A DNA stretch of 48,659 nt from assembly GCA_902566675.1 (NCBI GenBank), contig CACFJO010000002.1, positions 1 through 48,659 on the forward strand, written 5' to 3'. The notes under the pieces were generated by a model. It worked only from the letters and a program-made list of their open reading frames with translations. It had not been told where the DNA came from and did no database searches. The first letter of the stretch is position 1. Every line of letters begins with the position of its first letter. The position numbers and the translations under genes were made by a program. Shown in pieces: positions 13,992-16,139 of the stretch. The DNA comes from an uncultured Pelagibacteraceae bacterium (GTDB taxonomy: Bacteria; Pseudomonadota; Alphaproteobacteria; Pelagibacterales; Pelagibacteraceae).

Positions 13992-14921
13992 ATGAAAATA
14001 TTAGGTATTGGTAACGCAATAGTTGATGTCATCTGCAAAGTTAATGAGGATTACTTAAAAAAAAATTCTCTTACCAAAAGTACAATGAAACTTGTTGACG
14101 AGGAAGAATTTAAAAAATTACTTTTAAGTCTTAAGATCGAGGAAACAATATCTGGTGGTTCTGTTGCAAACTCAATTGTAGGTCTTTCACAATTAGGTAA
14201 TGAAGTGGGTTTTATAGGGAAAATAAATGATGATGATCTTGGAACAAAATATGAAGAAGGCTTAAAAAAAGAAAATGTTAAATATTTTTATGAAAAAAAA
14301 AAAGAAGCAGCTCCTACAGGCACTTGTCTAATTTTAATAACTCCTGACTCTGAAAGAACAATGGTAACTTTTTTAGGCACTGCTGGTAAGATTAATGATA
14401 AAGATATTGATATTGGGGCTGTTAAAAAAAGTGAAATTTTATTTCTAGAGGGATATTTGTGGGACGAGGGTGAACCAAAAAAAGCTTTTGATATAGCTAT
14501 AAATAATTCTAATAAGGTAGCTATGTCTCTTTCAGATTTGTTTTGCGTAGAAAGACATAAATCTCATTTTTTAGATTTAGTCAGAAATAAAATTGATATC
14601 ACGTTTGCTAATGAGCAAGAAATTATGTCTTTGCTCGATGTGAAAAAAATAGAGGAGGTAGTAGAGCACTGTAAAAAATTTAATAAATTAATAGTAGTAA
14701 CTCGAGGAAAAAAAGGAGCAATTGCTGTAAAGGGAAATGAAGTAGTGGAATGTGAGTCCAAAAAAAATCTTAAAATTTTAGATTTAACTGGGGCTGGTGA
14801 CTTATTTGCAGGAGGATTTTTACACGGTCATATAAACGGTAGAGATTTGCAAGAAAGCCTAGAAAAAGGTTCTGTGATGGCGTCTAAAATAATTCAAATA
14901 ATAGGAGCGAGAATTAAGTAA
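13992..14921 (+). CDS. PfkB-family carbohydrate/nucleoside kinase (adenosine kinase-like)
   Basis: SGGSVANSIVGLSQLG and DLTGAGDLFAGGFL motifs. Confidence 0.9.
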   Translation: MKILGIGNAIVDVICKVNEDYLKKNSLTKSTMKLVDEEEFKKLLLSLKIEETISGGSVANSIVGLSQLGNEVGFIGKINDDDLGTKYEEGLKKENVKYFYEKKKEAAPTGTCLILITPDSERTMVTFLGTAGKINDKDIDIGAVKKSEILFLEGYLWDEGEPKKAFDIAINNSNKVAMSLSDLFCVERHKSHFLDLVRNKIDITFANEQEIMSLLDVKKIEEVVEHCKKFNKLIVVTRGKKGAIAVKGNEVVECESKKNLKILDLTGAGDLFAGGFLHGHINGRDLQESLEKGSVMASKIIQIIGARIK

Positions 14922-14922
14922 A

Positions 14923-15030
14923 CTATTTTTTTTTTCTTTTAAAACTTCCTTTACCTTTTTTTGGTTTTATAACTCTTTTTCTATACTTAGCGGTAAAAAG
15001 ATCTACAGCAATTTTATTTCTTTTTTTCAA
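14923..15030 (-). CDS. arfA: ArfA-like alternative ribosome-rescue factor (35 aa, TTG start)
   Basis: Manual minus-strand translation (M)KKRNKIAVDLFTAKYRKRVIKPKKGKGSFKRKKK*; resembles the ArfA core (LF..RVxxxKKGKGSYxRK); TTG overlaps the TGA of the upstream regulator; absent from ORF track. Confidence 0.72.
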   Translation of the reverse strand: MKKRNKIAVDLFTAKYRKRVIKPKKGKGSFKRKKK

Positions 15031-15653
15031 AGATAATATCCTTCTTTATGATTTAAAATAAAATTTTTGTCATTAAAAGTATCTAGAATTTTTTTTCTCA
15101 ATCTATAAATATGTGTTTCAACTGTATGAGTATCTGCACTTGAAGAATACTTCCATACTAAAGATAAGATCTGACTTTTAGAAACAGCTATTTCTTTATT
15201 TAATAACAATTCTAGAAGTTGAATTTCTTTTTCAGTTAAAATTACAAATTTGTTTGATTTAATTAATTTTTTTTCATTTTTATCTAACTTATAAGATTTA
15301 ATTTTGATAGATGAATTTTTATTAAATTGTTTTTTTGCTAAACTAGTATCAATTATTTCATTTAAATCTTGAATAGACGTCGGCAATTTCAAAACGTAAT
15401 CAAAATTTTTCATATTAATTTTATTTTTACTTGTAGCTAAAATACTAAAGCAATCCATTAATTTTAAAGTCTCATTTAATTTTTTATTATCTAGACTATT
15501 TTCATGAAAAATTAGTCCTGCAATATCTTTTGTAGTATTATCAGATAAATTTTTTTGATCTAATATTAAAGAGAAGTTGAGATGGAGCTTTAATTCGTTT
15601 AAAGTTGATAAAAAGCTATCAGGACCAAATACTATAATTTTTAATTTATGCAT
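15027..15653 (-). CDS. OmpR/PhoB-type winged-helix response regulator with degenerate receiver
   Basis: C-terminal VILTEKEIQLLELLL...VETHIYRLRKKI...LNHKEGYYL trans_reg_C; receiver-like N-terminus lacks the usual acidic residues. Confidence 0.8.
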   Translation of the reverse strand: MHKLKIIVFGPDSFLSTLNELKLHLNFSLILDQKNLSDNTTKDIAGLIFHENSLDNKKLNETLKLMDCFSILATSKNKINMKNFDYVLKLPTSIQDLNEIIDTSLAKKQFNKNSSIKIKSYKLDKNEKKLIKSNKFVILTEKEIQLLELLLNKEIAVSKSQILSLVWKYSSSADTHTVETHIYRLRKKILDTFNDKNFILNHKEGYYL

Positions 15654-16139
15654 ATAAAAATAAATAAGAGATATCTTACTTATGGAATATATAAAGTAAA
15701 ATGCGCAATTGGTAAAAGGGGGATTAATTTGAAAAGGAAAGAAGGTGATTTAACAACACCTAGAGGTAATTTCAAAATAATTAATATATTTTTTAGGAAA
15801 GATAGAGTTAAAAATTTTAAAACAAAACTTAAAAGAATACCAATACATAAAGGGTTAGGATGGTGCGATGATCCTTTATCTAATAAATATAATAGATTAG
15901 TTAGATACCCATTTAAATATAGCACAGAAAAACTATATAGATCTGACAACATTTATGACATCATATTGGTGCTAAATTATAACATAAAGCCAACTATTAA
16001 AAATAAAGGTAGTGCAATTTTTATTCATGTAGCGAAAAAGAAATTTTCTCCGACAAAGGGTTGCGTAGCTATTATGAAAAAAGAATTAAGAAAGTTAAGT
16101 AGTCTAGTTACTAAAGAAACTATTGTTAGAATAATTTAA
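15648..16139 (+). CDS. YkuD-family L,D-transpeptidase-like protein
   Basis: GDLTTPRGNF...IFIHVAKKKFSPTKGCVAI catalytic H...GC motif. Confidence 0.88.
   Translation: MHIKINKRYLTYGIYKVKCAIGKRGINLKRKEGDLTTPRGNFKIINIFFRKDRVKNFKTKLKRIPIHKGLGWCDDPLSNKYNRLVRYPFKYSTEKLYRSDNIYDIILVLNYNIKPTIKNKGSAIFIHVAKKKFSPTKGCVAIMKKELRKLSSLVTKETIVRII

Follow-up and report, generated by a model that had tools for sequence, protein, structure and literature searches.

The gene considered here, referred to as arfA, is a 35-amino-acid open reading frame on the minus strand of the window, by which we mean the whole 48,659-nucleotide stretch of DNA that was analyzed. Its product, MKKRNKIAVDLFTAKYRKRVIKPKKGKGSFKRKKK, is read from a TTG codon at position 15030 to a TAG codon at position 14923 (Table 1). 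An earlier note on this DNA had proposed an unlisted ArfA-like gene at this place, and the coordinates, translation, TTG start, CTTTGA overlap, A10 run, and TAG stop that it reported all agree with our reading. The TTG codon and the TGA codon of the upstream regulator gene have two bases in common, and this stop/start overlap, which the note had taken as a sign of translational coupling, is kept in nearly every distinct copy of the gene (Table 1). Beyond the TTG, the arfA frame extends upstream by just five open codons, which leaves this codon as its sole usual start; among the 85 distinct copies, ATG, TTG, and GTG are used, and CTG is used once. Purine-rich motifs resembling GAAGGA are found upstream of many arfA relatives, though not of all. 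The upstream gene had been described as a response regulator, which held for its DNA-binding domain only: no receiver domain was found among Pfam matches at an E value of ≤1, and it is possible that this regulator, without a recognizable receiver domain, is no longer phosphorylated.

Table 1. Genes and sequence features at the arfA locus of the window
Feature	Position	Strand	Evidence
arfA, 35-aa ArfA-like gene, TTG start, TAG stop	14923-15030	-	PF03889, PDB, conservation, pN/pS
TTGA, arfA start overlapping regulator stop	15027-15030	-	NTGA in 83/85 distinct copies
GAAGGA, ribosome-binding-site-like, 8 nt before TTG, within regulator gene	15039-15044	-	Sequence reading
A10 run, coding for the C-terminal lysines ahead of the arfA stop	14926-14935	-	In 11/85 copies; not conserved
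OmpR/PhoB-type winged-helix regulator, 208 aa, overlapping upstream partner	15027-15653	-	Trans_reg_C, E=9e-16; syntenic in relatives
PfkB-family sugar/nucleoside kinase, convergent, stop 1 nt from arfA stop	13992-14921	+	PfkB, E=1e-46
YkuD L,D-transpeptidase-domain gene, conserved neighbor	15648-16139	+	PF03734, E=1.6e-13; kept in relatives

A Pfam search with the peptide returned the ArfA family (PF03889) with a score of 25.5 bits, which is exactly the gathering cutoff (E=9e-6), as the family membership proposed in the note had implied. The match of the window copy spans residues 16 to 35 only; relatives score up to 33.5 bits, the profile match of other family members starts at position 9 to 12, and ArfA was the sole Pfam match for all 16 aligned members. 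When the whole genome was searched in six frames with PF03889, a single place was matched, the arfA frame itself (E=2.4e-6), and in genomes of the sister family, the same type of search gave a best value of only about 0.001. A sequence search of the PDB returned ArfA chains as the only matches, aligned without gaps over residues 3 to 35, and an NCBIfam search gave no match. The 35-amino-acid product is without the RF1-like GGQ catalytic domain of ArfB. The frame is a genuine gene, and it is likely to encode a minimal SAR11 form of the release factor-recruiting rescue protein ArfA, a reading to which we assign a probability of about 0.78. The assignment to the ArfA family holds, and the protein does not represent a novel type of system.

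Like E. coli ArfA (YhdL), SAR11 ArfA has the KKGKGS motif, an aromatic residue at the F25 position, and the R26, R28, and V29 residues. The segment from K33 to S38 of the E. coli protein is identical to K24 to S29, and N14, L20, R26, R28, V29, and R41 are kept as N5, L11, R17, R19, V20, and R32. The F25 position is occupied by Y16, a tyrosine in 85 of 85 copies, and E. coli Y39 corresponds to F30; L19, P23, and L24 are substituted by D10, A14, and K15. The E. coli protein has 72 amino acids; its residues 1 to 9 have no counterpart in SAR11 ArfA, whose last residue corresponds to position 44 and which is thus also without the C-terminal extension. The hydrophobic minidomain patch formed by L19 and L24, described as an RF2 contact for E. 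coli ArfA (PMC5378476), is not found, with D10 and K15 in its place. However, K-Y variants are also present in other proteins scoring above the PF03889 cutoff, and the patch has been described for E. coli; D10 and K15 alone therefore do not exclude ArfA membership. ArfA takes on an ordered structure only when it is bound to the ribosome together with RF2, and the E. coli protein is active if cut at Asn47 and inactive if cut after Met40 (PMC5378476), which places SAR11 ArfA, with its basic tail retained, close to the known functional limit. If active as predicted, it would indicate how short a functional ArfA can be in nature.

The minimal length that the note had pointed out is a general feature: only 6 residues follow KGKGS in 55 of the 85 SAR11 copies, compared to 25 to 37 residues in 10 of 11 enterobacterial and related ArfAs (17 in the remaining one) and 15 to 21 in shorter ArfAs from other gammaproteobacterial families. 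Among the latter, the ArfAs of families f197 and f204 (about 50 amino acids) share a reduced N terminus and a PKKGKGSY motif with SAR11 ArfA but continue for 15 to 21 residues to an end in ...AA. In five of these short proteins from Gammaproteobacteria, the C terminus is QAA or LAA, similar to that of the ssrA tag; this may be an intrinsic degradation signal, one that is missing from SAR11 ArfA.

The partners of a rescue factor of this kind were searched for across the family; the note had suggested that ssrA and arfB be looked for elsewhere in the genome. A tmRNA scored above the cutoff in 109 of 118 family genomes; a loss of tmRNA compensated for by ArfA is not supported, as tmRNA is nearly universal and its few absences fit assembly gaps. 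ArfB scored above the cutoff in 0 of the 118 family genomes and in 0 of 19 genomes searched from the sister family. An ArfB elsewhere in the genome was rejected, as all matches were the GGQ domains of proteins of RF1 or RF2 length; the third GGQ matches in genus g8 represent the second segment of a release factor-length protein. SAR11 RF2 retains the SPF motif, the switch loop with its Trp (GWG.QIRSY), and the Val/Ile and Phe residues of the pocket described as receiving F25 of ArfA (PMC6299226), whereas SAR11 RF1 is without these features. ArfA and RF2 are known to be matched to each other by species. SAR11 ArfA is a candidate for the backup of tmRNA in this clade without a recognizable ArfB.

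Most likely, judging from the sequence, SAR11 ArfA is an RF2-recruiting backup rescue factor that is made without the nonstop-mRNA feedback of E. coli. The basic tail, KPKKGKGSFKRKKK, would enter the mRNA channel that is left empty when a ribosome stalls at the end of a stop-less message, and the middle region from Y16 to I21, aligned to F25 to E30 of E. coli ArfA, would pair with RF2 and hold it in its active form, so that the GGQ loop of RF2 could free the peptide although no stop codon is present. The arfA gene would be translated through coupling to the regulator gene, and since it ends in an ordinary stop codon, the protein would be made directly in its short active form, where E. coli uses a cleaved message under tmRNA control. 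SAR11 ArfA, and not ArfB, would be the factor that backs up tmRNA.

In E. coli, the mRNA that yields active ArfA is truncated at a hairpin, has no stop codon, and is kept in check by tmRNA (PMC8012679). No terminator-like site was found at SAR11 arfA, and RNA structure at the gene showed no excess over shuffled sequence (z=-0.78); there is hence no sign of a hairpin/RNase III or terminator control of the E. coli type. The note had speculated that slippage on the A10 run might provide another route to nonstop control, an idea that does not survive comparison with the relatives: every one of the 85 distinct copies ends in an ordinary stop codon, A10 is found in 11, and 35 have no A before the stop. 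The conserved feature is the basic protein tail and not the A run. Production of a nonstop mRNA and a hydrophobic tail, both traits of the E. coli system, are thus not seen in SAR11 arfA; this is a matter of regulation and does not define the ArfA family. The simplest reading is that ArfA synthesis is probably coupled to the regulator gene, without tmRNA feedback, and SAR11 arfA is an apparent case of an ArfA outside trans-translation feedback. It also differs from E. coli arfA in its locus and its alphaproteobacterial host, while both genes face a convergent gene at their 3' end, mscL in the case of E. coli (PMC10070815). As the convergent genes pfkB and arfA are separated by a median of 1 nt (79 loci), their messages probably overlap, and antisense effects like those of arfA/mscL (PMC10070815) are possible. 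The tight packing may also be ordinary for a streamlined genome.

SAR11 bacteria belong to the most abundant bacteria of the ocean. The persistence of the gene in close strains and in the synteny of other SAR11 genomes, both raised in the note, was borne out. The arfA gene was detected in 32 of 37 genomes of the same genus in a search of relatives. Three of the absences were examined: pfkB itself is missing in two of these genomes, and in the third, it is truncated at the edge of its contig, so that a real loss is not supported where it was checked. Order-wide, 282 of 397 genomes match PF03889 at an E value of ≤0.01, 168 of them pass the cutoff of the family, and among the good genomes of the order, 115 of 151 match; named carriers include Pelagibacteraceae single cells, HIMB058, and PRT-SC02. 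The order nth-pfkB-arfA-regulator-YkuD-YggS, with pfkB and arfA convergent, is shared by five genera (g1, g6, g8, g9, and g10), and arfA lies at other loci in genera g5 and g11. At twelve Pelagibacter (g6) loci, the regulator gene runs straight into pfkB with no arfA in between, which is clean presence/absence variation at one site. ArfB was likewise not found in these arfA-negative Pelagibacter genomes, which may therefore depend on tmRNA alone. In the rest of the class, PF03889 matches are rare and were obtained in 10 of 385 sampled genomes, three of which are from Pelagibacteraceae itself. Rare lone ArfA-like frames were also seen in other Alphaproteobacteria (five of six above the Pfam cutoff), where contamination is possible. 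In a published survey, arfA was found in 0 of 2,376 alphaproteobacterial genomes (PMC11633108), and the gene has been described as "not present in Alphaproteobacteria" (PMC10070815). Contrary to this, arfA is common in SAR11, where it is short enough to evade routine gene calling. The novelty thus lies in host range, size, and the apparent lack of feedback. This clade-wide distribution, the clean Pelagibacter absences, the lack of a recognizable ArfB, and the phage relatives described below were not foreseen in the note.

A short frame with a TTG start that overlaps its neighbor could simply have arisen by chance in DNA that is rich in AT and in lysine codons. This explanation, which we consider to have next to no probability, is refuted by frame-specific selection, the conserved start overlap, and synteny, the latter two being kept across five genera. 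In the 85-copy set, pN/pS is 0.139 in the true frame but 1.1 and 4.8 in the shifted frames, and the entropies at the three codon positions are 0.35, 0.17, and 0.98 bits. For 30 members of the genus, pN/pS is 0.135, or 0.173 after leaving out the codons used as the search pattern. The arfA frame is therefore a protein-coding gene under purifying selection. Conservation is strongest in the basic tail, where the KKGKGS core (K24 to S29), whose conservation the note had made a test of its proposal, and R32 are present in 85 of 85 copies. This pattern, together with a Pfam match confined to the second half of the window copy, would also fit a small basic ribosome- or RNA-binding peptide, for instance, a modulator of stalled or hibernating ribosomes, that has kept or converged on an ArfA tail and lost the rescue function. 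However, N5, A8, L11, K15, Y16, and R19 are also invariant among the 85 copies, pN/pS is 0.203 in codons 6 to 22 (30 genus members), and the profile match of other members begins further upstream, making such a peptide quite improbable.

Somewhat less improbable, though still unlikely, is a rescue factor of the same kind that shares the KGKGS tail and whose N-terminal half recruits RF1 or RF2 differently, in the manner of Francisella ArfT, a protein of 40 amino acids that works with RF1 or RF2 (PMC6299226). The replacement of the L19/L24 patch by D10 and K15 and the absence of residues 1 to 9 would be in line with this, as would the likeness in size and the lack of ArfA-style nonstop control, which ArfT shares with SAR11 ArfA (PMC6299226). 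ArfT also has a basic tail and often goes unannotated. In contrast, ArfT has a KKGGSTNKK tail, a type that is not found in SAR11 ArfA, and is without a hydrophobic residue where E. coli ArfA has F25, whereas both the exact KGKGS motif and Y16 are invariant in the SAR11 protein; furthermore, of the two SAR11 release factors, only RF2 conserves the pocket. Bacillus BrfA is likewise a small basic RF2-recruiting protein (PMC8012679) but is longer than SAR11 ArfA, has an alpha-helical N terminus, and is considered to have arisen independently; no similarity to KGKGS was noted.

Short basic frames with an NPxAKxLRTPKF...KKxYxRK pattern and no KGKGS were observed in genus g7 (two loci) and in the sister family f2 (three loci). 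One of these scores at the cutoff of DUF7230 (PF23876), a family that shares NPxAKxLRTPKFxxxV...KKxYxRK with SAR11 ArfA but is without KGKGS and lies at another locus. As the profile of these relatives matches that of SAR11 ArfA with 96.5% probability, DUF7230 may be an unrecognized ArfA-like rescue family.

ArfA-like genes are also widespread in marine phages (viral contigs L166 to L245; positions 15768 to 15944 of L085), and at least 216 stretches encoding an ArfA relative were found in a scan of viral contigs. PHROGs offered only unnamed, weakly matching families for them. The phage proteins, such as gp30 of HTVC027P, which has been named ArfA (PMC12753301), share NPxAK...TPKYKxxxVKPKKG(K/R)GSFKR with SAR11 ArfA but are usually longer at one or both ends, and their genes lie in phage replication or packaging neighborhoods, with clamp-loader, DNA polymerase, terminase, integrase, and exonuclease genes as neighbors on several contigs. 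HTVC027P gp30 has the motif KKGRGSF and scores 20.2 bits, below the PF03889 cutoff. Since one phage version, MKRKNIIAKDLMSKKYKPRIVKPKKGKGSFKRK, comes close to being a host copy, exchange of arfA between hosts and phages, in one direction or the other, is likely. We tentatively propose, at somewhat less than even odds, that SAR11 bacteria and their phages share a mobile, always-on minimal ArfA that has replaced ArfB as the backup to tmRNA, has repeatedly disappeared from one locus, and is brought in by infecting phages. The host strain of HTVC027P appears to be without an arfA copy of its own; if the proposal is true, the phage protein would sustain ribosome function in the course of infection. 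Strains with and without arfA at an otherwise identical locus, together with the phage copies, would make the value of backup rescue testable in nature.
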